Of a DNA stretch of 64,000 nt, positions 7,013 through 51,048 are shown in pieces. Where the stretch lies: positions 1 to 64,000 of the IMG/VR virus record IMGVR_UViG_3300047362_000477; one strand, 5' to 3'. The stretch is from a virus. The translations under genes and the position numbers were made by a program. The first letter of the stretch is position 1; each line of letters opens with the position of its first letter. Under the pieces are notes generated by a model. The model saw only the letters and a list, made by a program, of their open reading frames with translations. It did no database searches and had not been told where the DNA came from.

Positions 7013-7277
7013 CTTTTAATTTTTTCCAGTCTGGATGTTGTGGCAAATACTTATGAAGCCCTATTGCCTGATTAATGATCATTTCTAATAATTTAAAATT
7101 AAACAATGGAGGAAATATTCCATGAATAATACTAGCAAATGCCATGAATAATTGTTTTCCTGCTTCTCTGAATGCTATGTACATATGTATAAAATAATGT
7201 ATTACAGGATTCTTCTTTTTTCTTTTGTTCAAAGAATCTGCTATACCTAAATGTTTCCAATCAAACCATTGTTTCAT
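6987..7277 (-). CDS. small membrane-associated protein, DUF6356-like
   Basis: A 96-residue protein with a basic N-terminus and two hydrophobic or amphipathic helices (HYFIHMYIAFREAGKQ, then LFMAFASIIHGIFPPLF) followed by LHKYLPQHPDW. This pattern recalls small proteins of the DUF6356 type found near surface-sugar genes; the assignment is from memory of the pattern. It overlaps the GNAT-like gene by 17 bases and the adenylation gene by 26. It may hold the cassette enzymes at the membrane. Confidence 0.45.
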   Translation of the reverse strand: MKQWFDWKHLGIADSLNKRKKKNPVIHYFIHMYIAFREAGKQLFMAFASIIHGIFPPLFNFKLLEMIINQAIGLHKYLPQHPDWKKLKDELNKNSK

Positions 7278-7773
7278 AATATTTTTCTATATTGAGTTTC
7301 CATACTGATTGACGTTGTCCATAAATTTCTTCTTCAGTAAAAAAATCAACTACTCCTTGTTTTGCTAATAAATGAAATAGTCTATCTGTTCTATTCATTT
7401 TTCCACTTGCATCATTTTCTACATTAGTAGTAATGTATGCAGGTTTTGTGTCTGAGCTACCTGCCCATTTTAATTGTTCTGGTAATATCCATTTCCATGG
7501 AATACTAGTCATGTGTTTTTTACTTAATCCGTGTTGAGCTGGCATAGTTTGAACTCCTCTAAAAAGCATTCTATGTCCATCGTGAAATTCGTGGCAACCC
7601 GCCATTGAAACAATAATATCATTATGATAAACTGCCCACCATTCACCGTTGTGCTTTTTAACCCAATCATATTTCATTGCGTCTAGATCAGCATTATTCA
7701 TATAGCCCATATCTTGGCAGATATAACCAAAAAACTCAATATCTCTTTTTCCAGGATCTTCTTTTACTATCAT
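7261..7773 (-). CDS. GNAT-like acyltransferase
   Basis: A 170-residue protein, first gene of the - strand cassette. WWAVYHNDIIVSMAGCHEF followed by MLFRGVQTMP fits the beta2-beta4 part of a GNAT acetyltransferase, and YITTNVENDASGKMNR with a final strand (SVWKLNIEKYY) fits the later part. It resembles the divergently transcribed protein of 8173-8766 in layout (IIVSMAG versus LLAMSG). The classical Q/RxxGxG/A loop is not obvious, so acyl-CoA binding is uncertain. Next to an adenylation enzyme, acyl transfer is plausible. Its promoter is at 7783-7810. Confidence 0.45.
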   Translation of the reverse strand: MIVKEDPGKRDIEFFGYICQDMGYMNNADLDAMKYDWVKKHNGEWWAVYHNDIIVSMAGCHEFHDGHRMLFRGVQTMPAQHGLSKKHMTSIPWKWILPEQLKWAGSSDTKPAYITTNVENDASGKMNRTDRLFHLLAKQGVVDFFTEEEIYGQRQSVWKLNIEKYYETMV

Positions 7774-7782
7774 GATATTCTT

Positions 7783-7810
7783 ATTATATACATACTTATT
7801 TATCTGTCAA
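7783..7810 (-). promoter_or_regulatory. sigma-70-like promoter for the - strand cassette
   Basis: On the - strand: TTGACA (7805-7810), a 16-base spacer and TATAAT (7783-7788), a full consensus match 10 bases from the GATATC-ATG start region at 7773. GATAAATA (7797-7804, - strand) lies within the spacer, so a late sigma factor may use the same site. It is back to back with the + strand promoter at 7818. Confidence 0.75.
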
Positions 7811-7817
7811 TGATTGA

Positions 7818-7846
7818 TTGACATTAAATGATAAATAGTGTAGTAT
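7818..7846 (+). promoter_or_regulatory. promoter with leader stem for gene 7888
   Basis: TTGACA at 7818-7823, a 17-base spacer and TAGTAT at 7841-7846. GATAAATA (7830-7837), a T4-late-like motif, lies in the spacer. Downstream, GTACC-AGATA-GGTAC (7856-7870) could form a small stem in the leader before the AAAGGAG site. Promoter quality is moderate because the -10 matches at 4 of 6 bases. Confidence 0.6.
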
Positions 7847-7887
7847 ATACAAAATGTACCAGATAGGTACGTTAAAGGAGAATTATA

Positions 7888-8160
7888 ATGGCTTTTATAA
7901 GAACTATAGACGTGGTTACTACTAACGGTAATACCTACGATACTTCAGAAGAGTTTACTGCTGAACATGGCCCAATGGGTACTGAAAATACTAATTACAT
8001 TACCGACAGTTCAATAACTCTTAATGAAGCTAAAGATGGTGTTAGAATTGTACTACATTACGTTGATGAAGCAACTTGGCAATCTCATAAAGATGCGGCG
8101 GCAGATGACGTTGCGGCTAAAGATATTACCATTTCTGAAGTAAGTAACGAAACAGTATAA
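7888..8160 (+). CDS. hypothetical protein
   Basis: A 90-residue protein with an AAAGGAG ribosome site. It is mostly beta-strand (FIRTIDVVTTNGNTYDTSEEF, later VRIVLHYVDEATWQSH) and has an acidic, Ala-rich tail. Its own promoter pair, including a late-type motif, suggests a separately controlled and perhaps abundant product such as a virion accessory protein, but no family is recognised. Confidence 0.6.
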   Translation: MAFIRTIDVVTTNGNTYDTSEEFTAEHGPMGTENTNYITDSSITLNEAKDGVRIVLHYVDEATWQSHKDAAADDVAAKDITISEVSNETV

Positions 8161-8172
8161 TCAGAGCAAACA

Positions 8173-8766
8173 ATGATCACATTGATCGATGTTATCAAAC
8201 ACCCTGAATACCAAGACAGTCTATTAGACTTTGTTTTTCGTATTGAGGATGATGTTCATCATAACAAAAATAATTATAAAGATTTTGAAAATCGTCTTAA
8301 AGAGTATTCCAGTTTTACAATACTCTTAGACGATGATCAAACTTTATTAGCTATGAGCGGACTATATAGAGTTGATAGCTGGCCTAAACACGTGGCAAGA
8401 GGATTGGATAGGACCTATTACTTTAATTGGCCAGAAGTAAAAAGTGGATTCAATATGCAAAGAAAATATGCAAGTCAATATATGTGGCCGTATCAAGTTA
8501 AACGTGCAGAAGAACTTGGATATAGAGGTGTGTTTGTAAGTATTCAAAAAAACAGAAGAGCATTTACTGACTTTGTTGGAAACATAAAAGAATTTCAACC
8601 TAGCATACTGCCAGGTTATTATAATACTTGTCATGTACATGATGAGGTTATCAATTCAGCACAAACCTGTTGGCAAAACCTAGCAATATATAAAATGAAA
8701 CCTTTTACTAGTTTAGATATGCCAAATATCAGCGAAGAAGAATATAAAAAGAGATATAAAAAATGA
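8173..8766 (+). CDS. GNAT-like protein
   Basis: A 197-residue protein. FTILLDDDQTLLAMSGLYRV followed by RGLDRTYYFNWPEV gives the strand pair of GNAT acyltransferases, and RAEELGYRGVFVSIQKNRRAF resembles the later helix-strand segment. It shares its layout with the - strand protein at 7261-7773. Its end overlaps the start of the radical SAM gene (ATGA type), so the two are coupled. A role in acylating the product of that enzyme is possible but unproven. Confidence 0.5.
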   Translation: MITLIDVIKHPEYQDSLLDFVFRIEDDVHHNKNNYKDFENRLKEYSSFTILLDDDQTLLAMSGLYRVDSWPKHVARGLDRTYYFNWPEVKSGFNMQRKYASQYMWPYQVKRAEELGYRGVFVSIQKNRRAFTDFVGNIKEFQPSILPGYYNTCHVHDEVINSAQTCWQNLAIYKMKPFTSLDMPNISEEEYKKRYKK

Positions 8767-9689
8767 TACAAGGATACTACGAACAAGAACCAGAAAATAA
8801 TACATTTCAAGATGTAATTATTGACGTTACTCATAGATGCAATATGACTTGTAAAAATTGTTACATTCCTAATAGAAATATTCCTGATATGAATATGGAA
8901 AAGATGTTAGAAACAATTAGTAAGTTTCCAAAACGTACAATGATTAGAATAATAGGTGCAGAACCTACTATGAGAAAAGATCTACCTGAAATGATTCAAC
9001 GTATTAGAAAAACAGGTAACAGATGTACATTGTTAACAAATGGTTTACGTCTTGCAAAAGATAGTTATGTAAAAACTCTAAAACAACATGGTCTTAGACA
9101 TTGTTATATTAGTATGAATGGAGCAGATAATGATGATTGGTACGAAGCTATTGATGAATTAAGATGTGCTACAAAGAAAGTTCAAGCATTAAAAAACTTA
9201 TCAAATAATAAGTTTATTATTGACACAGGAACTATTATTGTAAAAGGTATAAACGATTCTGCTATTGAACGTATGTTGTACGTATTTAATAATAATGGCA
9301 TAGATAACGCAGTATGTCGTATTAAAAATGTTGGTGACATAGGTCGTAGCATGACTGACAATGACGATGGTAACTATACATTACCAGGTTTGGTTAAACT
9401 GTTTGCTGAACAAACTAAACTATCAGAAGACTATATCTATAGCTGGAGAAATAAACCAATATATCAAAACGATGCACCAGAAGTAGATAGTTTTATGTTT
9501 CCTATGGATCCTAAAGCAGAAGGTAAATTTATGCATAAAAGTGGAATATGGTTTAAGATTGCCAACTGGAAAGGTGAAGAAGGACAAAGCATACCATTAC
9601 GTAATAATACACGTAGAGGAAGGCTTACACCAAATTGGAAAGTAGCTCCATTCTTTGAACACGTAAAAATGAACGAAGGTGGATACTAA
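8763..9689 (+). CDS. radical SAM enzyme
   Basis: A 308-residue protein. DVTHRCNMTCKNCYIPNR gives the CX3CX2C cluster motif (Cys26, Cys30, Cys33) that binds the [4Fe-4S] cluster and SAM. IIGAEPTMRKDLPEM stands where GGEP is usual (GAEP, a conservative change), and TLLTNGLRL is the next conserved strand. It lacks a clear Cys-rich C-terminal SPASM domain. Unlike the - strand island enzymes, it has no N-terminal Cys module. The QueD-like gene downstream raises a queuosine-type role, but the motif spacing is MoaA/SPASM-like rather than diagnostic of QueE. Confidence 0.85.
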   Translation: MIQGYYEQEPENNTFQDVIIDVTHRCNMTCKNCYIPNRNIPDMNMEKMLETISKFPKRTMIRIIGAEPTMRKDLPEMIQRIRKTGNRCTLLTNGLRLAKDSYVKTLKQHGLRHCYISMNGADNDDWYEAIDELRCATKKVQALKNLSNNKFIIDTGTIIVKGINDSAIERMLYVFNNNGIDNAVCRIKNVGDIGRSMTDNDDGNYTLPGLVKLFAEQTKLSEDYIYSWRNKPIYQNDAPEVDSFMFPMDPKAEGKFMHKSGIWFKIANWKGEEGQSIPLRNNTRRGRLTPNWKVAPFFEHVKMNEGGY

Positions 9690-11338: not shown

Positions 11339-11609
11339 CAACCTAAAAGAAGTGTTTGACCCAGAGATGAGTATAAACGTGTATGACTTAGGTTTAATAT
11401 ATGAGATAAATATTAATGAAGCACACGTTGATATAGTAATGACATTAACTAGTGCATTCTGTCCAGCCGCAGATGAAATTATTGCAGATGTTCATAACGC
11501 AGTCACCAAAGTAGAAGGTGTAGAAACGTGTGATGTAAAAGTTACATTTGATCCTCCATTTGGTCCGGACAAGATGTCAGAAGATGCTAGACTAATATTA
11601 GGCATTTAA
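11319..11609 (+). CDS. sufT: SufT/MIP18-family Fe-S assembly protein
   Basis: A 96-residue protein of the MIP18 (DUF59) family. FDPEMSINVYDLGLIYEI (13-30), the strand VDIVMTLTSAFCPAADEI with the conserved Cys near residue 47, and VKVTFDPPFGPDKMS are the family hallmarks. Bacterial SufT and eukaryotic MIP18 help deliver Fe-S clusters to target proteins. It is the first of five Fe-S-related genes in this stretch, which matches the many radical SAM enzymes encoded elsewhere in the window. Normal length for a single-domain member. Confidence 0.85.
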   Translation: MKEKIVNNLKEVFDPEMSINVYDLGLIYEININEAHVDIVMTLTSAFCPAADEIIADVHNAVTKVEGVETCDVKVTFDPPFGPDKMSEDARLILGI

Positions 11610-11625
11610 AAATTAAGGGGACGAA

Positions 11626-11979
11626 ATGACTTACTTGGTCACAGAAAATTGCATCAAGTGTAAACATATGGATTGCGTAGAAGTATGTCCAGTTGATTGT
11701 TTTTATGAAGGAGATAACTTTTTAGCGATCAATCCAGATGAATGTATTGATTGTGGAGTATGTGAACCTGAATGTCCAGCTGATGCTATTGTTGCAGATA
11801 TTGCATTAGATCCAGGAGAGCTAGATTATTGGACAAAGGTTAATACTGAGATGGCTGAAAAGTGGCCAAACATAACAGTAGCTCGTCCACATGATAAACC
11901 ACCTGATTGGGAAGAATGGGACGGTAAACCAAATAAGAGAGAACTATTATCAGAAGAACCAGGAAAGGGCGATGAATAA
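11626..11979 (+). CDS. fdxA: seven-iron ferredoxin (FdxA type)
   Basis: A 117-residue protein very close to bacterial FdxA. It has Cys9, 12, 17, 21, 25, 40, 43, 46 and 50 in the [18 protein letters not shown] and [12 protein letters not shown] arrangement. In FdxA three of these hold a [3Fe-4S] cluster and four a [4Fe-4S] cluster. The tail ([10 protein letters not shown], then DWEEWDGKP) is also FdxA-like. It can pass single electrons, which radical SAM enzymes need to cleave SAM. The acidic Glu-rich C-terminus extends a little past the usual end. A GGGG-type site precedes the ATG. Confidence 0.92.
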
Positions 11980-12549
11980 ATGATACAAACAGAACCGACA
12001 CCAAATCCAAATGCATTAAAGTTCATGCCATTGCGTGATGTAAGAGGTAATAAAGGACCATTGCATTATAAAAAAGATTCAGATAAAAATCCTAAAGAAG
12101 AATCAGATATAGCTAATTCTTTATTTGGAATAAAAGGTATTAAAGATGTATTTTTTGGTTCTGACTTTATTACTATTGGTAAAGAAGATATTGTAGAATG
12201 GGAAGAGATTAAAGAACCAATCATATTTCTTATAGAAGCCAATAGTGGGTTACCGTTTGTAAAAGAAAAAATTAAACCAGCCTGTGATACAATTAATAGT
12301 GATGCAGGTGAAAGTAAAGTTATCAAAACAATAAAAAAATTATTAGATGAAAGAGTAAGACCTGCTGTCGCAATGGATGGCGGCGATATACTATTTCACG
12401 GATATCACGAAGGTATTGTAAAATTAGAAATGTATGGTGCTTGTAGTGGTTGTCCTAGCTCATCAGCAACTTTAAAGATGGGTGTTGAAAATATGCTGAA
12501 GCATTATATTCCGGAAGTACGAAAGGTAGAGCAAGTATATGAGAACTAA
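11980..12549 (+). CDS. nfu: Nfu-type Fe-S scaffold/carrier
   Basis: A 189-residue protein with two domains. The Nfu N-terminal domain covers about 1-95 (TEPTPNPNALKFMP at the start is typical). The NifU C-terminal domain covers about 115-189, with CSGCPSS carrying the cluster-binding Cys155 and Cys158. Nfu proteins dimerise around a [4Fe-4S] cluster and give it to enzymes such as lipoyl synthase, itself a radical SAM enzyme. It starts directly after the ferredoxin stop and overlaps the next Nfu-like gene by 11 bases. Confidence 0.9.
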   Translation: MIQTEPTPNPNALKFMPLRDVRGNKGPLHYKKDSDKNPKEESDIANSLFGIKGIKDVFFGSDFITIGKEDIVEWEEIKEPIIFLIEANSGLPFVKEKIKPACDTINSDAGESKVIKTIKKLLDERVRPAVAMDGGDILFHGYHEGIVKLEMYGACSGCPSSSATLKMGVENMLKHYIPEVRKVEQVYEN

Positions 12550-12895
12550 AGAAGAAATACTAAAACACATTGAAGAAGTTATGAAAGAATATGTTGATCC
12601 AAACGTAGCACAACATGGTGGTAAAGTTAATGTTATTGATTTTGATATGGAATCAGGAACATTACATTTACAAATGAGTGGCTCTTGTAGTGGGTGTGCT
12701 GGTAGTACACAAACATTATCATATGGAGTAGAGCAAACATTAACACATTTTGTAGAAGAAGTAAAAGCTATTACTAGTGAAGATGATGCTATGTATAGTG
12801 ATCCATATTATGTTTCAGATCCAATGAGTATGTATGATTATTCAGAACCTGATCCAGGCTTAGACTTGGAAGAAGGCGAGAGTGATGGCAGTTAA
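12539..12895 (+). CDS. second NifU C-terminal-domain protein
   Basis: A 118-residue protein with a NifU C-terminal domain: NVAQHGGKVNVIDFD (22-36) and MSGSCSGCAGSTQTL (46-60), with Cys50 and Cys53. An acidic tail follows from about residue 83. It lacks the N-terminal domain of its neighbour, so the phage carries a full-length and a short Nfu side by side. The two may form mixed dimers or serve different targets. It overlaps both neighbours. Confidence 0.88.
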   Translation: MRTKEEILKHIEEVMKEYVDPNVAQHGGKVNVIDFDMESGTLHLQMSGSCSGCAGSTQTLSYGVEQTLTHFVEEVKAITSEDDAMYSDPYYVSDPMSMYDYSEPDPGLDLEEGESDGS

Positions 12896-13223
12896 AGTTT
12901 TTTTTATTGCAAAGATAAAAGACTTTAATGATGAATATAAAGACTATGTTAGCCGTGTACGTGACTTAGGTGAAGCACACGATGGTTTTATTAGTTTAGA
13001 AAATGTAGAAATAGGTGATATAGAAATCACTGTTACTACTTGGCGTAGCAAAGAAGATGTTGCTGAATGGGCAAAAGATCCTGTTCATGTATCAGCAAAG
13101 AAAAAAGCTATGCAATGGTATCATTGGGTAAGAGGTTATCATGTAGAAACACCAGACCCAGGACCTACTATGAAAAAAGAATTTATGAAGAGCGAACCAA
13201 AAGATGGAAAAGATAAAAGTTAA
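12885..13223 (+). CDS. ABM-domain (dimeric alpha-beta barrel) protein
   Basis: A 112-residue protein resembling the antibiotic biosynthesis monooxygenase fold: VKVFFIAKIKDFNDEYKDYVSRV, then FISLENVEIGDIEITVTTWRSKEDVAEWAKDP, then HVSAKKKAMQWY. Relatives are small cofactor-independent oxygenases or simply dimeric binding proteins. A GTG lies one codon earlier, but the ATG is preferred. It overlaps the previous stop by 11 bases. Its role in an Fe-S cluster context is unknown. Confidence 0.6.
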   Translation: MAVKVFFIAKIKDFNDEYKDYVSRVRDLGEAHDGFISLENVEIGDIEITVTTWRSKEDVAEWAKDPVHVSAKKKAMQWYHWVRGYHVETPDPGPTMKKEFMKSEPKDGKDKS

Positions 13224-34341: not shown

Positions 34342-35384
34342 TCAAAGAACTCCGGACAGGCAAGTTTAAAATTTGTACCCATTAATTTATCTTTTATAGC
34401 CATGTGTTTTAATAATTCGTTATATACATTTTCGTTGTATTCATATTTTGTTTCTATTTCATATCTTTCTCGTAAACTATTATTCAAGCTACGATATGTT
34501 AAGTAGCTTGGTCTATATATTTCAACACTTTTAGAAAATAGTATTCCTTCACTTTTAGCCCATTGTTCAGCTAGTTTATCTTGTGCCGCATTTATTGACA
34601 TAGGCAAATAGTTTATGGTTAGACTAAAATTGTCGTTGTGCATTGCAATTTTCTGAAAATGTTTTAAGTTTGCAGATACTTCTTTCCATTTAGCACCTGC
34701 TCTAATATATTCAAATCTATCTTCAATTCCATCTATACTTACTAAAAAGACAACTTGCTTAAATGATAATAACATTTTTAGCATCTCATCGTCAAGTGGT
34801 ATAGTTCCGTTAGTGATAATACTTAAACGTACTGCTGGTGATACTTCATCTTCATATAACTTTTTAATAATCTTTCTTACGTGTGGAATCATAAATGGTT
34901 CACCACCTGTAAATTTTAAATACTTTGTATCATATAAATTTTCCATCATTTGTGGCAGTATATCTTTATGCCACCCAGTTTTAAGTTTAGCTTCATTTTT
35001 AACTACATTTAACCATTCTTCATTTGGATTTTGATTTACTAGATTATGCCATTTACTGCTACTTGTAGGGTTACACATTACACAGGTTAGGTTACAAGTA
35101 TTGTGCAATTTTAAATCCCAATATTGAATTCCTTCTGCACCTTCAAACCATTCGTTAGCTTCCATTCGTAAACTTGTATTACCTCTGTCTTCTTCTGCTT
35201 TACATTCGTAGCAGTTAGGTAACCACTTGTCTAAACTTTTATCATATAATTCATCAAATTTTTCTCGCCAGCCAGATTCGTTATATCTTTGATCTATATC
35301 TTCATTCATGTACATACAACAAGGTCGTACGTTTCCTACTGGTCCTATTGTCATACCATGTTTAAACATTAAACATTTTGGCAT
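34338..35384 (-). CDS. radical SAM enzyme, shorter island type
   Basis: A 348-residue protein. The N-terminal module starts MPKCLMFKHG and has VRPCCMYMN (Cys22, 23) and LPNCYECK (Cys58, 61). The core has LHNTCNLTCVMCNPTSSS (Cys97, 101, 104) and LKFTGGEPFMIPHVRK. FLVSIDGIEDRFEYIRAGAKW follows the island pattern. It is shorter than the 400-residue members and resembles 40015 in the style of its front module. It overlaps the hydroxylase-like gene by 23 bases. Confidence 0.9.
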   Translation of the reverse strand: MPKCLMFKHGMTIGPVGNVRPCCMYMNEDIDQRYNESGWREKFDELYDKSLDKWLPNCYECKAEEDRGNTSLRMEANEWFEGAEGIQYWDLKLHNTCNLTCVMCNPTSSSKWHNLVNQNPNEEWLNVVKNEAKLKTGWHKDILPQMMENLYDTKYLKFTGGEPFMIPHVRKIIKKLYEDEVSPAVRLSIITNGTIPLDDEMLKMLLSFKQVVFLVSIDGIEDRFEYIRAGAKWKEVSANLKHFQKIAMHNDNFSLTINYLPMSINAAQDKLAEQWAKSEGILFSKSVEIYRPSYLTYRSLNNSLRERYEIETKYEYNENVYNELLKHMAIKDKLMGTNFKLACPEFFE

Positions 35385-36147
35385 AATTCTCGTTTACTTT
35401 CTTTTTAAATGCAATACCCGGTCCACCGTCAAATATCATATGTATTCTTGGTTCATCACTTCGATTCCATACTGCGTGTTTATATCCAGTATTTATTTTA
35501 AAAACTGTTCCATGTTTAAAAGGCATAGTTCCATATTCTTCCATAACTAAAGAACACCCATCTGGATTATTAATAGCAACGTTTGTTGCTCCCAATCCAG
35601 GTACTTTATCCACATCTTTATGCGGTGCTATATAACCACCTGGTAACAAACACATAAATCTTACTCTTGTAAAATCATCGTATAACATTTCATCTTGCAT
35701 CCATTCTTTTGTAAGTGGTGCAAACTTTGCAATATCAGTCCAATCACTTAAATCTTTTTCTGCCCTGTCTGGCATATTATAATCTTCTGGACAATTTGTA
35801 TGTACACTACTCATACCGTGTATACATAGGCTCATCCAACCTCCTGATCCTGCAGATCTATGATTTGTAAAACATTCAGTTTCCATTAAATGATATGCTT
35901 CTCTTTTAATATCTCCCCATGGCACATTTATATCATGTAATCTTACCCAAGGAACTCGTGTGTTATCTCCAATATAGTCTATATCGTCTGATGCATCTAA
36001 TTGTACTTTATCTGCTGAAGCAGGATTTTTATCAAAGTTTTCCCATATATCAAAATGCTCTCGAGTCTCATCATCAACTCTTTCCCACCAGTCACTTTGA
36101 AAACCAGTTTTTTTACTTCTGTATCTATCAAATTTCCTCATATCCAA
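35362..36147 (-). CDS. aspartyl/asparaginyl beta-hydroxylase-like oxygenase
   Basis: A 261-residue protein. MCLLPGGYIAPHKDVDKV (165-182) supplies His176 and Asp178. FKINTGYKHAVWNRSDEPRIHMIFDG supplies His224 and the 2-oxoglutarate-binding Arg234. This is the aspartyl/asparaginyl beta-hydroxylase arrangement. Such enzymes add a hydroxyl to an Asp or Asn side chain or to related small molecules, consuming oxygen and 2-oxoglutarate. Between radical SAM genes on one side and two paralogous unknown proteins on the other, it may tailor the same product. It overlaps both neighbours. Confidence 0.75.
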   Translation of the reverse strand: MDMRKFDRYRSKKTGFQSDWWERVDDETREHFDIWENFDKNPASADKVQLDASDDIDYIGDNTRVPWVRLHDINVPWGDIKREAYHLMETECFTNHRSAGSGGWMSLCIHGMSSVHTNCPEDYNMPDRAEKDLSDWTDIAKFAPLTKEWMQDEMLYDDFTRVRFMCLLPGGYIAPHKDVDKVPGLGATNVAINNPDGCSLVMEEYGTMPFKHGTVFKINTGYKHAVWNRSDEPRIHMIFDGGPGIAFKKKVNENYAKMFNV

Positions 36148-37520
36148 GTCCTTCTTCCTATGTCTATCATGTCTTTGTGTGTTCCTCCTGCATCTCCACT
36201 AAAATATACTTTTTTTGATTTACCCAAAATCTTGTGAATATAATCAATTAGAGAGAAGTATACATTCATTCCACTATCAAAATAATTTGCTTCGTAGCTC
36301 CATATATTACTTACTTGTAAAAATACTACCTTATTAGGTTTTACTACAGATACTATATCATCATATGAGTTTATAATATCTGCTATGATAAAGCTATGTT
36401 CTAATTCTTTAATCTTATACCAAGCTTCTAGCCATTTTTGTTCGCTATCAAAACTATTAAAAAAATCATCTACTTTACTTTCTTCATAAATTAAACTTAA
36501 ATTACTAGGTTTATTATTTTCATAATACTGCTTAAAGTTTATACCGTTCCAATCATGAATAAGTCCTTGTAACCAATCCATTTGTGGTTTACTAAAGTCA
36601 ACCCATATAACTTGTTCCATTGTATCTAGGTTATTTGCTATATGTTTAAATTGAGATAATCCACTTGCTGGACATACTAATACTTCAACACCTTTTGAAC
36701 CATAGTTTGGTACGTCTTCTGTGTTTGTAACATATATCATATTATGTGATGAATTCAAAAGCTCAAACAAAGGTTTCTTATCTGCTTCGTTGTTTTTTAA
36801 ATCATATACAAATTCTATTTGATTTTGTTTAGTTAACGAATTCCAATATTTTAAATTTGCGTGTAGTTGAGTCCATTGTTGCTCATCTTCAGGATACACA
36901 CATACTTTTTTACTTCTTATATCAAAGTCAAGATTTAATACTGTATAACCTTCTTTTAATGATACCCATAAAAACCTATCAAATATATTAGCTGGTTCAA
37001 TTTTTCCATCATTTCCTTCTATAGGTTTTATCCAATAAGGAGTGTAATCATCGTGTATATTCTCTTCACTTACTCTATATTTCTTTTTAAGTATTTCATC
37101 TTTAGTTAACCATTTAATATTATCAATTTCTTTTAAGTTAACAATTATACATTGTTCATGAAATCTAGGATCTTTATTTTTGAAATTTAAAATATGTCCG
37201 GCTACAAGCCATCTATCATATGTATGAAAGGCTTTTAGAATAGCTTCGTCTATTTCTGGTTCAAGAGGCCAACTGCCTTCTGCCCATAGTACTGCATATT
37301 TGTAATCTAACTTTTTTAGTCTTCTTAATATTGCAATTATTTCATCGTCCTCTATTTCAGTTATAATAGAACTTTCCATAAAGTTTATATTTACATTAGT
37401 ACAATTTTTTAAAGTAGACACATATGAATCTTTTGTATCGTCATCATACTTAATTAATGCCTTATCAAAAGAAATATGACATACTGGAATGTCGTTATAT
37501 TCATTTATTTTTATTTTCAT
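36138..37520 (-). CDS. unknown protein, member A of a paralogous pair
   Basis: A 460-residue soluble protein with no recognised family. It is clearly related to the neighbour at 37520-38803. Shared blocks are KYAVLWAEGSWPLEPEIDEAI (KYAAFWFDGCWPKSDGIEKKI in the neighbour), WLVAGHILNF (WITAVHPNFP), VIWVDFSKPQ (YIWFDFDACS) and AWYKIKELEHSFIIADIINSY (FWTQVKLCKHEYIEADLINDY). The alternating strand/helix pattern resembles glycosyltransferase-like or nucleotide-binding folds, but I would not name an activity. It lies amid radical SAM genes and overlaps its sister by one base. Confidence 0.6.
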   Translation of the reverse strand: MKIKINEYNDIPVCHISFDKALIKYDDDTKDSYVSTLKNCTNVNINFMESSIITEIEDDEIIAILRRLKKLDYKYAVLWAEGSWPLEPEIDEAILKAFHTYDRWLVAGHILNFKNKDPRFHEQCIIVNLKEIDNIKWLTKDEILKKKYRVSEENIHDDYTPYWIKPIEGNDGKIEPANIFDRFLWVSLKEGYTVLNLDFDIRSKKVCVYPEDEQQWTQLHANLKYWNSLTKQNQIEFVYDLKNNEADKKPLFELLNSSHNMIYVTNTEDVPNYGSKGVEVLVCPASGLSQFKHIANNLDTMEQVIWVDFSKPQMDWLQGLIHDWNGINFKQYYENNKPSNLSLIYEESKVDDFFNSFDSEQKWLEAWYKIKELEHSFIIADIINSYDDIVSVVKPNKVVFLQVSNIWSYEANYFDSGMNVYFSLIDYIHKILGKSKKVYFSGDAGGTHKDMIDIGRRTWI

Positions 37521-38803
37521 TATATTGCTTTCCCTATACTATCGTTCGTACTGAATCCAATTATCGATCTTACATCACAATTTAATTCATTGTCATCTAC
37601 ATCTGTTCCCAAGAACCAGCATCTTTTTGTTCTTTGTAATTCTGTAATTAAATCAGCAAAACTCTTTTCTAATGTAAATGGTTCACTTCTTACTTTTAAT
37701 AATACATAACTGTATATGTTACTGGCCCAAAAAAATGCACTCTTATCGTTATCTACTGCATTAGTAATTTTATGGTAATCATTTATTAAATCAGCTTCTA
37801 TATATTCATGTTTGCATAGTTTAACTTGTGTCCAAAAATCTAACCAACTATGTTCACCACCAAATGCTTCAACAATATTTAACCATTCCTTGTCCACATT
37901 TTTTAATAGATCTGTATTAGCTTCTGGATTATCCTTACAGAACTGTTTTACGAACTCTGGATAGTTAGATCCGTCCCAATTTTCCACCATTAGACGCTTA
38001 AATTTGAGGCTACAAGCGTCGAAATCAAACCAGATGTACTTTGTACTGTCTATATCAAAACCGTACTTAAAAGCGAAATATAGCAGTTTAAAACCTGCGG
38101 TTGTGCCTACATATTGTTGGAAATTTTCGTGTTTTAATCTACTAGAAATACCAGAATTAACTGGCTCAGTATTAACAAAATATATAGGACTAGTTGGTAT
38201 ATTTTTACGTTTAATCACTACTCTAGCACCACGTGTTATTGTATGGTCTGTATATTTTTTACCCATTAGTCCATTTAAGAAGTTTACTGGATCTGTCTTT
38301 GGAGCACATACAACTATGTTTCTTAATATTGTTGGATTTAATTCAACTGTTTGTTCGCCTAGCCACCTTTCGGCCCAGAAATCATAACTACCAAAGTTAG
38401 GTGCTTTAGGTGGCCAGGCATTGAACTGGTCTATGTTAAGTAACATTAGACTATCTGGAAAATTAGGATGTACTGCCGTAATCCATTCTTTGTCCAAATT
38501 CTTTATAAACTGTAATATTTTTTTCTCTATCCCATCTGATTTAGGCCAACATCCATCAAACCAAAATGCGGCATACTTATGACCCATTTTTCTAACTGAC
38601 TGTACCCACGCAATGTTTCTATCATTGTATAAGTTTACTATACTTGAATTAATATGATTGTCAATCTCTACTTGTTGTAGCAACTGTATTTTTTGTTTTA
38701 GTTCTTCCCAATTAGACAAATGAGTGTTTTTAGGAATAAAAACATTTACAATCTCGCTATCACTTATCCATTGATAGTCCCAATCTTTATCACCCTTTTT
38801 CAT
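37520..38803 (-). CDS. unknown protein, member B of a paralogous pair
   Basis: A 427-residue protein related to the 36138 product along most of its length, as shown by four shared blocks (KYAAFWFDGCWP, WITAVHPNFP, KYIWFDFDACSLKF, ADLINDYHKI). Aromatic-Asp pairs such as FWFDGCW and IWFDFDAC are the most constant features and could form a binding site. Divergence is large, so the duplication is old. It overlaps the upstream radical SAM gene by 14 bases. Function unknown. Confidence 0.6.
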   Translation of the reverse strand: MKKGDKDWDYQWISDSEIVNVFIPKNTHLSNWEELKQKIQLLQQVEIDNHINSSIVNLYNDRNIAWVQSVRKMGHKYAAFWFDGCWPKSDGIEKKILQFIKNLDKEWITAVHPNFPDSLMLLNIDQFNAWPPKAPNFGSYDFWAERWLGEQTVELNPTILRNIVVCAPKTDPVNFLNGLMGKKYTDHTITRGARVVIKRKNIPTSPIYFVNTEPVNSGISSRLKHENFQQYVGTTAGFKLLYFAFKYGFDIDSTKYIWFDFDACSLKFKRLMVENWDGSNYPEFVKQFCKDNPEANTDLLKNVDKEWLNIVEAFGGEHSWLDFWTQVKLCKHEYIEADLINDYHKITNAVDNDKSAFFWASNIYSYVLLKVRSEPFTLEKSFADLITELQRTKRCWFLGTDVDDNELNCDVRSIIGFSTNDSIGKAI

Positions 38804-40025
38804 TTACTAACCTTTCATTAACTATATCCATACCTTCAAGTTTAACTCCAAGATGTTGTTTTATCATTTTCTTTAAATCTACATTAAGCAAATAACGATT
38901 CTCTATATCTCTGGTATACTTCCTCATCTTTGCATAATCTCTTATAGTTGGTTCATTGTTTTTTAAATAAGTTATAAACTTATTCATTTCTGGAAATTCT
39001 TTTTTAGCTTCTTCTAATTTATTTAAAATTAATTCTCTATATTCAGCTGGCCATAAATTAGGTCTCAAGTATTTTGGTGTTTGCAAAATGTTTGCCGTAA
39101 TAAACTTTAAGTCAATCGGACTATCTTTCCAAAACTTAAAGAACTCTGGCATATGAAAAATATTGTGTGCCTGTACTGTTATACCAGCGGCAAGATCTAT
39201 TGTTGGTTCTGAATCCAATATCATCATATTTGCATATACTGTATCCCAATCACCATCTCTTCTTATATAATTGTATACATCTCCTATACCGTCCATACTT
39301 ACTTTTATATTAACACTTTTAAACTTATTCCAAATTTCAATTAAATCGTATTTTTTAAATTTGATATAACTTAAATTACTAGCATAACGTAACTTAATTC
39401 TTCTCTTTACTTCGTCTGGTATACTATCTAATAAATCATAATGCTCTTTGTTTATTATTGGCTCACCACCAGTAAATTGTAAAGTATGAACTGTATCCCA
39501 TATACTAGGCCATTTACCAAGGCTTTCAAATAGTGTAGTTGGTCTCAATAGTCTAGTTTCATATCCATCTGTAGTATACTTTTTAATAATATCTAAATCA
39601 GCAACACGTTTATAACTACTATGAGTACTGCACATAATACATTTTAAATTACAAAAATTACTTACTTTTAATTCCACCCAATAAGGTTTATTGTTTACAG
39701 TATAATCATCATTAACATCTATTATATCAGAAAAAGTTTTCCAATTATCTTTTTCCCATTGTAGCCTATTGCTTATAATTCCAGAATCTTCATTGTGCCA
39801 ACATACATCACAACGTTTAGGTCTTTCACCATTAGCTAACGCCCTTCTAAGTTCTTTATAGTTTTTATTATTCCAAGACTGTATTGCACTTTCTCCTTTT
39901 TCATTTAAAGGTATTTCTTGTGCTTCACAACAAGGTACAAGGTCTCCACCTGCACTTCCATAGACGTGCATAAATGGTAACATACAAAAAGTTTTACTTT
40001 TCTTTAATTTCTCTTTATCTATCAT
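38790..40025 (-). CDS. radical SAM enzyme, island type
   Basis: A 411-residue protein. The front module has KTFCMLPFMHVYGSAGGDLVPCC (Cys14, 32, 33) and KRCDVCW (Cys72, 75). The core cluster Cys125, 129, 132 lie in VSNFCNLKCIMCSTHSS, and LQFTGGEPIINKEH is the SAM loop. KVSMDGIGDVYNYIRRDGDW matches the island pattern. Length and layout are close to 27853 and 33124. It overlaps the upstream radical SAM gene by 11 bases. Confidence 0.9.
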   Translation of the reverse strand: MIDKEKLKKSKTFCMLPFMHVYGSAGGDLVPCCEAQEIPLNEKGESAIQSWNNKNYKELRRALANGERPKRCDVCWHNEDSGIISNRLQWEKDNWKTFSDIIDVNDDYTVNNKPYWVELKVSNFCNLKCIMCSTHSSYKRVADLDIIKKYTTDGYETRLLRPTTLFESLGKWPSIWDTVHTLQFTGGEPIINKEHYDLLDSIPDEVKRRIKLRYASNLSYIKFKKYDLIEIWNKFKSVNIKVSMDGIGDVYNYIRRDGDWDTVYANMMILDSEPTIDLAAGITVQAHNIFHMPEFFKFWKDSPIDLKFITANILQTPKYLRPNLWPAEYRELILNKLEEAKKEFPEMNKFITYLKNNEPTIRDYAKMRKYTRDIENRYLLNVDLKKMIKQHLGVKLEGMDIVNERLVNEKG

Positions 40026-41154
40026 TATACTTTAATATACTGGCAAACTTTGGTGCCATACTTATATCTTGTCCTCTGTGTTTTAAAACTTTGTTTAGCT
40101 CTGCTATATACTTCTCACTATTATCAATGTTTGATTCTGTATTAATAAGTCTTTTAATCATTTTATAAGAACTTTTAAACTTACCTGCATTTTTATTAAA
40201 GCCACCGTACTGTGACTCTATCATAAAATCAAGTGTCTTTTTATACCATTCAGGCCAATGCCTAATACTCATATAATGAGGTTCTTCTACAATTTGTAAC
40301 ATAACATCAATACCTTTATGCACTCTAGCCCAATGTATAAATTCGTGTAACTGTGGAGCATTAATTACACTTAAAGTGGTGGCTGTAGCTATTTTTAAGC
40401 GTCCTGTAGCGTCTTTAAACTCTATCCACTTGTCAAGTGTTGCTTCTATCTTATCCCACTTACTAGGGTAACGTAGAAGCTCATTTGTAGTTCCTACTCC
40501 GTCAATACTAGGACTTAAATCTATTTGTTTAAACTTTAATAATGCGTCATGCTCTAATTTTGCTGGAAACCATGTACAGTTTGTAAATATTTCTAAATGT
40601 ATTTGTTCTGCTATTCCATGATCAGCTAATCTTACAATTAGGTTTAAAAATTGTTTATGTAAAAATGGTTCACCACCTGTTACTTTAATATACTTCACGT
40701 GTTTTAGATCATCAATGTTGATATTATCTAAATCATATTCTTGTACTTCTTTTAATTTAGTAATCTTTTCTTGACTACTGATACCTAATGCTAGTTCATC
40801 TTTATCCCAATTATGACTATATTCACTACCACAACTTAGACAGGCTAGATTACACAATCTACCTACAGTTATTTCTAGATACTCAAGTCTTACAGTATCG
40901 TCAAAGTCATTAAAGAATTGATCTGCTTCTGTTCTCATACTTGATCCATTATTAGCTTCGTCTATTTTACATTTGTAACAACCAGGATGCCATTTGTTTT
41001 GCATCATTAGTTTTCTAATATCTTCAAAATCATTATGATCATTTGGTCCCAGAAATCTATTGTGAAATCTACAACATGGTGTATTTGGTACACCATGCAT
41101 AAGCATCTTACCCTTAAATGGATAAGCACAAGCATATTCTGGAAGTCTAGCCAT
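40015..41154 (-). CDS. radical SAM enzyme, shorter island type
   Basis: A 379-residue protein. The front module has YACAYPFKGKMLMHGVPNTPCC (Cys9, 27, 28) and PGCYKCK (Cys59, 62). The core Cys101, 105, 108 lie in VGRLCNLACLSCGSEYS, and IKVTGGEPFLHKQF is the SAM loop. DLSPSIDGVGTTNELLRYPSKW follows. It starts directly against the PLP-enzyme-like gene (one-base overlap), which suggests that the two products act together. Confidence 0.9.
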   Translation of the reverse strand: MARLPEYACAYPFKGKMLMHGVPNTPCCRFHNRFLGPNDHNDFEDIRKLMMQNKWHPGCYKCKIDEANNGSSMRTEADQFFNDFDDTVRLEYLEITVGRLCNLACLSCGSEYSHNWDKDELALGISSQEKITKLKEVQEYDLDNINIDDLKHVKYIKVTGGEPFLHKQFLNLIVRLADHGIAEQIHLEIFTNCTWFPAKLEHDALLKFKQIDLSPSIDGVGTTNELLRYPSKWDKIEATLDKWIEFKDATGRLKIATATTLSVINAPQLHEFIHWARVHKGIDVMLQIVEEPHYMSIRHWPEWYKKTLDFMIESQYGGFNKNAGKFKSSYKMIKRLINTESNIDNSEKYIAELNKVLKHRGQDISMAPKFASILKYNDR

Positions 41155-42059
41155 TACTCAGTAAATTTTCCTTTCTTCTTATGTTGTCTTACTTCTTTAC
41201 CAATGTTAACTCTGTTGTACAATCCATCTCTATGATACTCGTCCCACTTTGGACCTTTAGGTGCTAGTCCAATATGAACTGTGTTTGTAGCTTCAAATCC
41301 ATAGTGTTCACATACTGCTAACTGACTGCTCATATAATTGTTTGGATGGGTATCAGGACTAAACTCGTTCATTAATCTATTTCCAATAGCAATGTTCAAA
41401 TGATTTAAATGATTCCATTCATTCTGTACAGGAACAGTTCCTTCGTCAATATTTGAGAAAGCTATACCTGTTCTCCAATTACCACAACTTAATCCTTTGG
41501 TAGTACTAAACACTACCATTTTAATACAAGGCTCAACAAAATTAATTTCAATATCGTAACAAGTACCAAACCAAGCACAATCAATTAATACAGGAACATC
41601 TTTTTCATTGCATTGTTTTATTACGTCATAGTATTGTTCAGGTACTCTACCTGTTCCACTAAATGGCACACTTATTAATATTGCATCACCAGATTGTATT
41701 CCAGTATCATCAATACTATCATGCCACTCCATTGGGTGATTAATTTGTGCATCTCTATTGTATGGAAACTCTCCACGAAACATTTTTAAGTTATATCCAT
41801 TCACCTGTGTCCAATGATGCCACCAGGCTAATGATTGTATTGTACCATCTGTAACATATCTATTTTTAAATGTTTCTACACCTGTAAAACTATTCAACTT
41901 ACTACTAGCTATCCATTTAGGATAATTCTCTAACAATATATTTCCTTCATCTGTTATTGTACTAGGATCAATATTGGGAAAGTATTCTTTTACTAGAAAA
42001 TCCATATATGGTTGATGCCATATACTATTTCCTGTTTTACTAAAATTGGGATTACTCAT
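41154..42059 (-). CDS. PLP-dependent aminotransferase-like protein (fold type I)
   Basis: A 301-residue protein. ILISVPFSGTGRVPEQYYDVI (127-147), VPVLIDCAWFGTCYDI (155-170), with Asp160 as the pyridine-N partner, and FSTTKGLSCGNWRTGIAFS (184-202), with Lys188 as the candidate PLP lysine and Arg196, reproduce the core of class I/II aminotransferases. Length is about 80-100 residues short of typical enzymes, mainly at the C-terminal small domain. It could be an aminotransferase, decarboxylase or C-S lyase on the island's product. It overlaps both flanking radical SAM genes. Confidence 0.7.
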   Translation of the reverse strand: MSNPNFSKTGNSIWHQPYMDFLVKEYFPNIDPSTITDEGNILLENYPKWIASSKLNSFTGVETFKNRYVTDGTIQSLAWWHHWTQVNGYNLKMFRGEFPYNRDAQINHPMEWHDSIDDTGIQSGDAILISVPFSGTGRVPEQYYDVIKQCNEKDVPVLIDCAWFGTCYDIEINFVEPCIKMVVFSTTKGLSCGNWRTGIAFSNIDEGTVPVQNEWNHLNHLNIAIGNRLMNEFSPDTHPNNYMSSQLAVCEHYGFEATNTVHIGLAPKGPKWDEYHRDGLYNRVNIGKEVRQHKKKGKFTE

Positions 42060-44359: not shown

Positions 44360-44704
44360 TTATCCGCTAAAGTCCATTCTCCAAGGATACATTGTGTATC
44401 CTGCTGGCTTTAAAATATATTCTTCAAACAATATAATAAGTACGATACCAAACACATACTTTACCCATGTAGGCCAAGTGTTTTGCCATCTTGTAAATGG
44501 TTTCAATATCCACATCCAAAAACTTGCTACTTTACCCCAAAACCAATCACCAATATTAAATGGTGGCGTTTTCCATAAAACTACTGGAATGAAAAGATAC
44601 CATATCCAAACTGGTATTTCATCTGTTGGTTCAGATGCATATATTAGGAAACACACTATTGCTAATAGATATATTCCAATGTAATTTTTTAAATGATTAT
44701 ACAT
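44360..44704 (-). CDS. membrane protein with about three helices
   Basis: A 114-residue Trp-rich membrane protein. The helices lie at about 7-22 (IGIYLLAIVCFLIYA), 30-45 (PVWIWYLFIPVVLW) and 80-97 (WVKYVFGIVLIILF). The ATG at 44704 overlaps the amidinotransferase stop (ATGTATAA), the same overlap form as tail 2; the earlier start is a GTG. It could be a membrane anchor or exporter part for the island's product. No family recognised. Confidence 0.6.
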   Translation of the reverse strand: MYNHLKNYIGIYLLAIVCFLIYASEPTDEIPVWIWYLFIPVVLWKTPPFNIGDWFWGKVASFWMWILKPFTRWQNTWPTWVKYVFGIVLIILFEEYILKPAGYTMYPWRMDFSG

Positions 44705-45761
44705 AACTCTCACAATCTCCTTCTCTAACTATATCACTCGTTAAGCAATGTATGCCACCATCCCAAAAATACTGATGTCTAAAATTCCAGTAAATTGGTT
44801 CAATACCATGTGCTTCCATTTCAGCAAAGGCGGCTTCGTTCTTGCCTGTGCAGATTACTGTGTTCTCATCTAACGATAATACGTTAACATCAAATACACT
44901 TTCGTCTGGACAGCCTACCCAATGCTCTAGCCATTTGCTTACATACTCTGTATGAAATCTTTGCTTACGAGTATTTTGAAAATCTTCTGGCATATCAAAA
45001 TCATCTGCTACTTCAATGATAGTCCAGTTCTTCATTTCTTCTGGTACCCAGTTTTTATTCCAGGTCATTAGTACACCAGGTTTCAGCAATGCAATTTTGC
45101 CATCGATATGTCCTCCGACTGGTATGTCCAAAAATTGTGTCTTAGGATATCGCAACTTTATTTCACGTTGAATCCACTCACGGCCCAGTTCCGTACCTTT
45201 ACCTCGCTTATTGTCTCCCTCATAGGGTTGGCTAAACAACACGCGGTCCCCACACTTTATCATGTTAGCCGCATGATAAAGTAAGCGATGATTCTCTACA
45301 AAGTAGTCGTATTTTTTACCACTCTCAATCATTGCTCCTGGCATACTAACCCAATCAGCACCTTCACGAAACCATTTACTACAATGGTCGTAGTATGCTA
45401 GATTCTCAAAATATCTATTATCACTACCTGTATAAATTTCAAATATTGTATTACCGTAAGGCATTAATGTATCACGTGGCATTAATGGATGATTAGGAAA
45501 TCTACAATGCATCCAAGGTAGCTGAATTTGCTCGCCACCGGTGATTGTAAATATGTCTTTTGGCCTTACGACCTCAACACCTTTGCTTTTTAATATATTT
45601 TCTAGTATGGTTAAATCTTCGGCAGTTTCTCTGAATATTTGTTCCATGACAGTTCTGGTCTCTTCGTCCTTATGCCATTCAAATGTTTCTGGAGGAAACG
45701 GAGCACCTAATATAACCCGTTTGAGCGGTTGAAACTCGCTCCATACATTAACTGATTTCAT
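44697..45761 (-). CDS. amidinotransferase/guanidino-modifying enzyme (first copy)
   Basis: A 354-residue protein of the amidinotransferase (pentein) superfamily. The His/Asp block is VGGHIDGKIALLKPGVL (His218, Asp220). The catalytic Cys339 is in FWDGGIHCLTSDIVREG, and PLKRVILGAP opens the fold. Relatives include glycine amidinotransferase (arginine plus amine gives a guanidino compound and ornithine), DDAH and arginine deiminase. A second member lies at 49816. It is the first gene of the - strand operon that runs down to 26209, so guanidine transfer may open the pathway. Confidence 0.85.
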   Translation of the reverse strand: MKSVNVWSEFQPLKRVILGAPFPPETFEWHKDEETRTVMEQIFRETAEDLTILENILKSKGVEVVRPKDIFTITGGEQIQLPWMHCRFPNHPLMPRDTLMPYGNTIFEIYTGSDNRYFENLAYYDHCSKWFREGADWVSMPGAMIESGKKYDYFVENHRLLYHAANMIKCGDRVLFSQPYEGDNKRGKGTELGREWIQREIKLRYPKTQFLDIPVGGHIDGKIALLKPGVLMTWNKNWVPEEMKNWTIIEVADDFDMPEDFQNTRKQRFHTEYVSKWLEHWVGCPDESVFDVNVLSLDENTVICTGKNEAAFAEMEAHGIEPIYWNFRHQYFWDGGIHCLTSDIVREGDCESYV

Positions 45762-49812: not shown

Positions 49813-49820
49813 TATTTATC
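49813..49820 (-). promoter_or_regulatory. GATAAATA late-promoter-like motif
   Basis: On the - strand GATAAATA lies about 75 bases before the aaRS-like ATG, just inside the end of the second amidinotransferase gene. Two T9 tracts (- strand) lie between it and the ATG. Confidence 0.4.
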
Positions 49821-51048
49821 TTCGTAGCTCGTTATTACCCCATAATCTACCAAACTCAATTCCCTGATCTCCACGTTCTGGAAAATAGTCTTCACAATCA
49901 CCTTCACGTTCTAGATCACTTGTAGCACAATGTAATCCACCGTCCCAGAAGAATCTGTGTCTCATATTACAAGTAACTACATCTACTTTATGTTCACCTA
50001 ATTTATCTTCAAGTTCTTTAGCAGGGCCACTAGCAATTACTGTATTCTCATTAACACTCAAACAATTTACATCAAAATTAGTCTCCCAACAAGCACCTAC
50101 ACTAGGGTGCATATATAAATCAATAAATTTATGTAATGCTTCGTTTTGTTCTTCGCCTGCTATCCAATAATCTGCTACTGGTCTTTTCTTGTTTAATCTC
50201 CAGTCATCTTTTACTGTTACTCTATAATCTTGCCAAGCAGTAGTATGATCATTATGCTTTCTATCTATTTTAATAACATCCCAACCTGGATATGTTTCTT
50301 CATATTTGTTTACATTAGTATGACTAATAAGCAATCCTGGTCTCACTAGAGCTAATACTGCATCTGTATGACCACCCATAACTGTAGTATTGATTCTAAA
50401 ATTGTACCCATACTTTTCATTAAACTTTTTAAACCATTCAACTAATACTTTAGTAGGGCCATTAAAGTCATGTAAGTCAATCATAATATCTCTACCAGTT
50501 CTCATAATACTAGGCCAAGAAATAGCAAATCCTTTGCCTGGGTTTAGTGCCGTTGCTTCTTTTATTATGTTTAATTCTTGATTCTCATCTCCTAGATCTA
50601 AAAAATCATCACAACCTGCCCAAGGTGCATATTCATCTTCAGTAAAGATATTATGGTTATCAAGCATTGTTTTATTCCATTTTCTAAAAATACTATCACG
50701 TTTGCCTGTTAATAATTTTTCACCAAATATAATTTGATCATCTCTAGGTGTATTAAATGGTCTTGGTATGTATCCTTCTTCTTCTACAAATTCTGTTACA
50801 CTTTCGTATCTTTTATTATCAGTTACACAAGTATCTGGCATTCTGTAAACTTTTACACCATAACTTTCTGTTAATACTTTACAAAAATAATCCAAGTCTT
50901 CTCTGGTTTCTTCATTTACTTTCGTCATGACATCTGCTACTTTTTTATCATGATAGTCTTCAAAGAAGCCTTTAGGAAATACATTTCCCACCATTACCTT
51001 TGTTAGTTTATCCCAACTATTATAACTTTTAAATCCAAAATTATTCAT
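49816..51048 (-). CDS. amidinotransferase/guanidino-modifying enzyme (second copy)
   Basis: A 410-residue member of the amidinotransferase superfamily. It opens with WDKLTKVMVGNVFP. VMGGHTDAVLALVRPGLLIS gives the catalytic His/Asp and FWDGGLHCATSDLEREGDCEDYFPERG the active Cys374. It shares FWDGGxHCxTSDxxREGDCE with the copy at 44697 but is longer, with an extra C-terminal segment and a longer middle. The two probably act on different amines or in sequence. Its start overlaps the small gene upstream (TAATG). Confidence 0.85.
   Translation of the reverse strand: MNNFGFKSYNSWDKLTKVMVGNVFPKGFFEDYHDKKVADVMTKVNEETREDLDYFCKVLTESYGVKVYRMPDTCVTDNKRYESVTEFVEEEGYIPRPFNTPRDDQIIFGEKLLTGKRDSIFRKWNKTMLDNHNIFTEDEYAPWAGCDDFLDLGDENQELNIIKEATALNPGKGFAISWPSIMRTGRDIMIDLHDFNGPTKVLVEWFKKFNEKYGYNFRINTTVMGGHTDAVLALVRPGLLISHTNVNKYEETYPGWDVIKIDRKHNDHTTAWQDYRVTVKDDWRLNKKRPVADYWIAGEEQNEALHKFIDLYMHPSVGACWETNFDVNCLSVNENTVIASGPAKELEDKLGEHKVDVVTCNMRHRFFWDGGLHCATSDLEREGDCEDYFPERGDQGIEFGRLWGNNELRR

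Follow-up and report, generated by a model that had tools for sequence, protein, structure and literature searches.

A hydroxylase-associated family of mostly viral proteins with predicted glycosyltransferase A and methyltransferase folds

The collagen lysyl hydroxylase/glucosyltransferase LH3 (PLOD3) and the mimivirus proteins R699/L230 follow a common logic, in which a 2-oxoglutarate (2OG) hydroxylase and a glycosyltransferase (GT) are combined on one chain or encoded as neighbours. In R699, Mn is held through D83 and D86, and the Asp pair D162/D163 is required (PMC11838735). A second arrangement is found in the chondroitin polymerase CHSY3-CHPF, a heterodimer of paralogs, where CHPF has neither a DxD motif nor a donor site and stabilises CHSY3 (PMC12748766). 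Here we analysed the first 64,000 nucleotides (hereafter, the window) of the 99.5 kb IMG/VR virus record IMGVR_UViG_3300047362_000477, and specifically two adjacent genes, A and B, which lie next to a gene encoding a 2OG oxygenase of the aspartyl/asparaginyl beta-hydroxylase family (PF05118; Table 1).

Based on structure models, A and B are each predicted to consist of an N-terminal GT-A fold and a C-terminal class I S-adenosylmethionine (SAM)-dependent methyltransferase fold, and the constant partner of their family is the PF05118 hydroxylase, not radical SAM. The locus has a predicted GT-A fold and the combination with a 2OG hydroxylase in common with LH3 and R699/L230, and a paralogous pair, one member of which is probably GT-dead, in common with CHSY3-CHPF. 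In contrast to LH3 and R699/L230, the hydroxylase is of the PF05118 rather than the PLOD type, the second Rossmann domain has a methyltransferase fold, unlike that of LH3 and R699, and no sequence relationship was detected. The family has no motif resembling the Mn-binding D83/D86 of R699, and the DD of its conserved HDDYTP motif is a candidate counterpart of D162/D163. Similarly, CHSY3 has a DxD (D261/D263) and H394 whereas A lacks a DxD, and CHSY/CHPF proteins include two GT domains and no methyltransferase domain.

Paralogy, predicted folds and family membership

An adjacent pair of paralogs of 460 and 427 residues had been proposed in a preliminary description of the window, and both the open reading frames (ORFs) and the paralogy were borne out. 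BLASTP aligned A and B in two blocks (E = 1e-14 and 3e-9), and a profile-profile comparison matched them over 329 columns (probability 99.5%, E = 3e-23), indicating that they are paralogous across most of their length and not only in the four blocks first noticed. On the minus strand, B is upstream of A, which is followed by the hydroxylase gene. The stop codon of B overlaps the start of A (TAATG), and the stop codon of A overlaps the start of the hydroxylase gene (ATGA), so that the three genes are, judging from sequence, translationally coupled; the ATG at 36141 that forms this second overlap is a more likely hydroxylase start than the listed TTG at 36147. The adjacency and order of A and B are kept in ~15 other IMG/VR contigs, which also keep the same neighbours. 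Ratios of non-synonymous to synonymous substitution rates (dN/dS) among close relatives were ~0.21-0.24 for A and ~0.09-0.10 for B, as expected for genuine genes under purifying selection. B is more strongly conserved than A, with 68-73% identity to island relatives (L003-L010) compared to 37-42% for A and 55-90% for most neighbours, and A is among the fastest-changing genes of the syntenic block.

The AlphaFold model of A, built from a 28-sequence alignment, included two domains (predicted local distance difference test score, pLDDT, 86.6; predicted template modelling score, pTM, 0.78), and a separate prediction for B yielded the same two folds (pLDDT 82.1, pTM 0.80). For the N-terminal half of A, the best GT-A match in a VIA fold search was CHSY3-CHPF (Z 10.5, 4.2 A, 170 residues aligned), followed by Manic Fringe (Z 9.5), mimivirus R699 (Z 9.4), and the PBCV-1 capsid glycosyltransferase (Z 9.1). 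These matches span ~150-187 residues, consistent with a GT-A fold, and Foldseek also linked A to LH3 (E 9e-4). The C-terminal half of A matched NNMT, PNMT, and 3rod (VIA Z ~10, 162-175 residues aligned; methyltransferase-like by Foldseek at E 5e-4), and the seven-strand Rossmann fold of class I methyltransferases is predicted both for this region and for residues 202-412 of B. While A residues 255-456 share this fold with NNMT and PNMT, along with a conserved motif I glycine, motif II Asp, and motif IV Asn, the identity is ~8-12%, and the small-molecule acceptor role of these enzymes is not implied for A. Matches to B included SpsA (Z 9.9) for the GT-A-like half and 6ulo, an uncharacterised protein from Leptospira (Z 12.2), for the C-terminal half. 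Since these Z scores are only moderate, we do not claim that other folds are absent, and a predicted fold does not amount to a function.

Sequence searches placed these proteins outside described families, as the preliminary description had suspected in calling the pair unrecognised and a candidate new family. Neither A nor B matched any family in Pfam, PHROG, NCBIfam, or PADLOC, or any relative among PDB sequences; this includes the twitch-domain radical SAM family NF033640 of NCBIfam, which their neighbours do match, and no Pfam methyltransferase family scored above its cut-off for either protein. Single Pfam scans of 28 family members, with hits accepted up to E 10, recovered neither a GT family nor any match common to the members, and a tblastn search of 50,697 phage records with A, B, and three distant relatives returned no match. 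A role in defence was considered and dropped, given the lack of a PADLOC match. Conversely, two IMG/VR scans with A profiles, which used the HDDY motif as a pattern and yielded clusters that favour HDDYTP, recovered 185 and 179 relatives on contigs that are partial, and a fold search of BFVD returned three full-length "uncharacterized" proteins from uncultured Caudovirales phages. Across 84,980 bacterial and archaeal genomes, only two contigs matched, both from Bacteriovoracales metagenome-assembled genomes (MAGs), one of which resembles a bacterial chromosome when its neighbours are read by eye. Taken together, A and B represent a new family built from known folds which, based on these profile matches, appears to be large, mostly viral, and uncharacterised.

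Shared motifs and divergence of protein B

The blocks common to A and B had been read as aromatic-Asp motifs, and possibly as the signature of a new pocket. The secondary structure of the models and residue counts explain them instead by known fold motifs: most of them represent methyltransferase motifs II, III, and IV, the remainder being the GT-A strand at whose end a DxD is usual, so that the aromatic-Asp motifs belong to a SAM-type site and do not mark a new pocket. Specifically, IWVDFSKP/IWFDFDAC is where methyltransferase strand 2 ends and includes the motif II acid, D308, which is found in 48/48 members of a non-redundant set that includes 41 A-type proteins. HSFIIADII/HEYIEADLI corresponds to strand 3 and motif III (D/N381, 48/48), and FLQVSNIW/FFWASNIY to strand 4 and motif IV (N405, 45/48). 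The motif I glycine, G287, is conserved in 46/48 A- and B-type members, and both the glycine loop and the motif II acid are found where the secondary structure of the A model would place them.

By the same secondary structure, LWAEGSWP/FWFDGCWP closes the GT-A strand at the site that a DxD would usually occupy. At the corresponding positions 80-82, A-type members have residues such as A/S/T, then P/E/A, then G or D; D is found at position 80 in 0/41, and the last position is G in 33/41. We had also considered "AEGSWP" as a counterpart of the E...W active-site segment of LH3 and R699 (E114...W118 in R699), and dropped this assignment since the model puts AEGSWP earlier, on the strand normally ending in DxD. 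The remainder of the A-type GT half includes a distinct set of conserved residues, with S151 and Y209 in 41/41 members, T160 and P161 also invariant, H109, N128, and R202 each in 40/41, and Q123 in 39/41. The HDDY motif was the search pattern, hence its invariance is partly by construction and was not used as evidence; among A-position genes found through B, without this pattern, HDDYTP is present in 13/16 contigs, the others having HDNYTP, HDEYTP, or NSKYTP. The preliminary suggestion of glycosyl transfer is therefore upheld in its fold, with a predicted GT-A domain in the N-terminal half, and weakened by the missing DxD metal site. Some GT-A families lack DxD. The A/B family may thus work in a GT-like manner without it, but is not filed here as a GT family.

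A maximum-likelihood tree of 42 members grouped the island-phage A and B proteins into one fully supported group each, both inside a single fully supported clade, which indicates that one duplication gave rise to the A/B pair in the phages with a radical SAM island. Compared to A, B lacks HDDYTP, Q123, R202, and Y209 and keeps the methyltransferase motifs, so that it appears to be a GT-dead paralog with retained SAM-binding motifs. On the near-identical contigs L105-L107, a 519-aa B-type protein (6001-7560) lies beside a gene of 251 aa in the hydroxylase position, and no A gene is found; B can thus persist without A.

The hydroxylase partner and proposed roles

The preliminary description had placed the pair in the core of a radical SAM pathway. 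This does not extend to the family: after clustering of 169 A-type members at 60% identity, ~12 of the 37 clusters showed no radical SAM CxxxCxxC motif within six genes (by a motif scan that missed a QueE-like gene in L086). The PF05118 hydroxylase, on the other hand, is fused to the A-type protein in 4 clusters, its direct neighbour in 26, and 2-5 genes away in 4, and was not found in 3. The 30 clusters with a fused or adjacent hydroxylase compare to a mean of 6.7 and a maximum of 15 when gene placement is shuffled. The HxD...H...R catalytic (iron) triad is found in 89/91 hydroxylases and is present as HKD...H...R in the window protein. Lineages differ in whether the hydroxylase gene precedes or follows the A-type gene, and it is fused N-terminally in L050, L068, and L134 and C-terminally in L095, indicating that the association was rebuilt several times. 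Gene order points to joint action of the hydroxylase with the GT-A/methyltransferase protein, and the fusions do so more strongly.

We tentatively favour, at somewhat less than even confidence, a hydroxylation-coupled tailoring of proteins or peptides, in which A is the working GT-A/methyltransferase protein and B its GT-dead partner. The Fe(II)/2OG hydroxylase would first add a hydroxyl to a side chain of a protein or peptide. By analogy with LH3 and mimivirus L230/R699, the GT-A/methyltransferase protein would then transfer a group to this hydroxyl or its vicinity, methylate it, or both. The group is probably a sugar, although this is a guess, the DxD being absent. In island phages, one ancestral gene would have been duplicated, with A keeping both sites, and B losing the GT-type site, keeping the SAM-type site, and most likely binding to A in a complex, in which it would stabilise A or serve as a methyltransferase subunit. 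The stabilising role is suggested by the CHSY3-CHPF case. Radical SAM enzymes and, elsewhere, a halogenase or a B12-radical SAM protein would represent further tailoring enzymes added to this core. The paralogy, duplication, hydroxylase coupling, fusions, and motif retention or loss on which this proposal draws are read from sequence or gene order.

Several observations weigh against hydroxylation-coupled tailoring as proposed. The DxD is absent at its expected position in 41/41 A-type members, and metal-dependent nucleotide-sugar transfer may therefore be lost; L103 further has NSKYTP in place of HDDYTP. The fold matches have moderate Z scores (9-10) at ~10% aligned identity and concern whole domains. 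Three clusters have no detected hydroxylase, L105-L107 have B and no A, and collagen-like Gly-X-Y repeats, which would be a clue to an LH3-like substrate, were found neither in the neighbouring genes nor in the window.

The missing DxD also opens a different interpretation, which we see as doubtful overall: the GT-A half would be dead or repurposed for substrate binding only, and the chemistry of the family would reside in the C-terminal domain, which would use SAM to methylate a residue that has been hydroxylated or otherwise oxidised, making both A and B methyltransferases. No member has a DxD, with G at its last position in 33/41, the methyltransferase motifs are kept in A and B whereas the GT-side residues are lost in B, and the two proteins resemble each other more in the methyltransferase half than in the GT-A half. 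However, the invariance of S151, T160, P161, and Y209 and near-invariance of H109, Q123, N128, and R202 among A-type proteins, at 20-30% overall identity, suggest a kept active site and are hard to explain by binding alone.

It is about as doubtful that the product of the module is a small molecule, or a peptide resembling ribosomally synthesised and post-translationally modified peptides (RiPPs), with the hydroxylase, A/B, radical SAM, halogenase, and carbamoyltransferase-like genes all acting as tailoring enzymes. This would fit the many twitch radical SAM genes around the pair, the fusions to tryptophan halogenase and B12-radical SAM proteins, and the position of the Halobacteriovoraceae MAG module among carbamoyltransferase-like and amidotransferase/asparagine synthetase-like genes (by eye), but no precursor peptide was recognised beside the pair, and in ~12/37 clusters the module has no radical SAM motif nearby, with two such lineages found beside tail-fibre genes. 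These two lineages form the basis for another, rather unlikely scenario, in which the virion itself is modified: hydroxylation of its tail fibres or spikes, followed by their glycosylation or methylation, would alter adsorption. In L052, a tail spike/fibre gene (11403-12932; PHROG tail, E 2e-10) is directly downstream of the module, and in L065 another (7588-9141; PHROG tail, E 2e-43) is two genes upstream, both in radical-SAM-free contexts. Direct cases are limited to these two lineages, however; neighbours tested in L050, L022, and L024 had no PHROG match, and the pair in the window has no tail gene beside it. Least probable is the decoration of a host surface glycan or lipid, e.g. to block superinfection, given that lipid A hydroxylases are among the PF05118 proteins. 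This would agree with the GT-A fold of A, with the MAG instance near GT2-like and ArnT-like genes (read by eye), and with the interpretation of pelagimyophage glycosyltransferases as host-surface decoration (PMC7029224). However, proteins or glycosaminoglycans are the acceptors of the GTs that match most closely in structure, and the co-occurrence with twitch radical SAM and halogenase genes is more suggestive of chemistry on peptides or small molecules.

Hydroxylation-coupled tailoring, if true, would mean that phages own an LH3-like "hydroxylate then decorate" route. For a family common in uncultured viruses (>170 IMG/VR loci), the analysis provides a predicted fold, a partner in the genome, and a role open to testing, in compact three-gene or one-gene (fused) systems that could be expressed in E. 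coli. Hydroxylation thereby replaces radical SAM chemistry as the constant feature of such islands. A bolder version, which we regard as rather unlikely, is that the DxD-less GT-A domain with its new conserved site (H109, Q123, N128, S-x-E-x-x-HDDYTP, R202, Y209), the 2OG hydroxylase, and the methyltransferase domain together represent an undescribed protein modification in uncultured phages (hydroxylation, then group transfer, then methyl capping), with a GT-dead heteropartner added in island phages.

Radical SAM surroundings and other neighbours

Table 1. Coordinates of the gene pair, its predicted domains and motifs, and its direct neighbours in the window
Feature	Position	Strand	Description	Basis
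Protein A	36138..37520	-	460 aa; predicted GT-A-fold domain, then class I methyltransferase-fold domain	ORF list, AlphaFold model, fold matches
Protein B	37520..38803	-	427 aa; paralog of A with degenerate GT-A-like half and intact methyltransferase motifs	ORF list, model, folds, motif loss, tree
A, GT-A-like domain	36747..37499	-	Residues ~8-258	VIA Z matches
A, class I methyltransferase-like domain	36153..36758	-	Residues ~255-456	VIA Z, Foldseek
A, WAEGSWP block	37266..37286	-	Residues 79-85; usual DxD position, without DxD	Secondary structure, residue counts
B, FWFDGCWP block	38543..38566	-	Residues 80-87	
A, HDDYTP motif	37038..37055	-	Residues 156-161	
A, IWVDFSKP block	36585..36608	-	Methyltransferase motif II; D308 invariant	
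B, IWFDFDAC block	38012..38035	-	Residues 257-264; methyltransferase motif II, D260	
PF05118 aspartyl/asparaginyl beta-hydroxylase-family 2OG oxygenase	35362..36147	-	Constant partner	Pfam E 3e-12, triad, adjacency
Twitch-domain radical SAM gene	38790..40025	-	Directly upstream of B; syntenic	NF033640, 320.9 bits (cut-off 170)

Additional components were observed around the hydroxylase module. A third component, a protein of ~300-340 aa with conserved LHExFEEYG and WGxLYLGYNTLGKDY motifs, is encoded in L147 (8349-9329) and 62 other loci but not in the window. Its gene mostly precedes the hydroxylase/family module, and in L029 and L157 it forms a fusion with the hydroxylase. It also accompanies the hydroxylase and A-type genes in L094 (9132-12264), on an apparent Halobacteriovoraceae chromosome, near the carbamoyltransferase-like and amidotransferase/asparagine synthetase-like genes (as read by eye). 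In L079, a divergent protein (11610-13139) that combines the methyltransferase half of the family with a C-terminal hydroxylase is encoded two genes from an A-type gene. Larger fusions include a single 1167-aa protein in L071 (4453-7956), composed of a PF05118 hydroxylase, a tryptophan halogenase, and an A-type protein, as well as A-type proteins fused to a B12-binding radical SAM protein (~1170 aa) in L138 (9950-13465), L141 (9950-13453), L149, and L152.

In the window, the radical SAM island (26411-55591) comprises about a dozen radical SAM genes, many from the twitch subfamily, together with a PLP-aminotransferase-like gene (41154-42059) and two arginine-deiminase/amidinotransferase-like genes (44697-45761 and 49816-51048). 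No small ORF conserved across island phages, as would be expected of a precursor peptide, was found beside B. Radical SAM cassettes have been described in T4-like marine phages, e.g. TARA_ERS488813_N000010 with 12 radical SAM genes (PMC5332604), and for such phages also in relation to the pelagimyophage host recognition cluster (PMC7029224), where an aspartyl/asparaginyl beta-hydroxylase is listed as a core gene of pelagimyophages. In their radical SAM cassettes and beta-hydroxylase, the viruses so described may be compared to the present one, and the excerpts of both reports considered here describe neither the A/B family nor its fold. According to PMC5332604, radical-SAM-rich T4-like marine viruses also have an Fe-S carrier gene, and the window encodes a CxxC-motif protein (11980-12549) that is NifU-like by eye.

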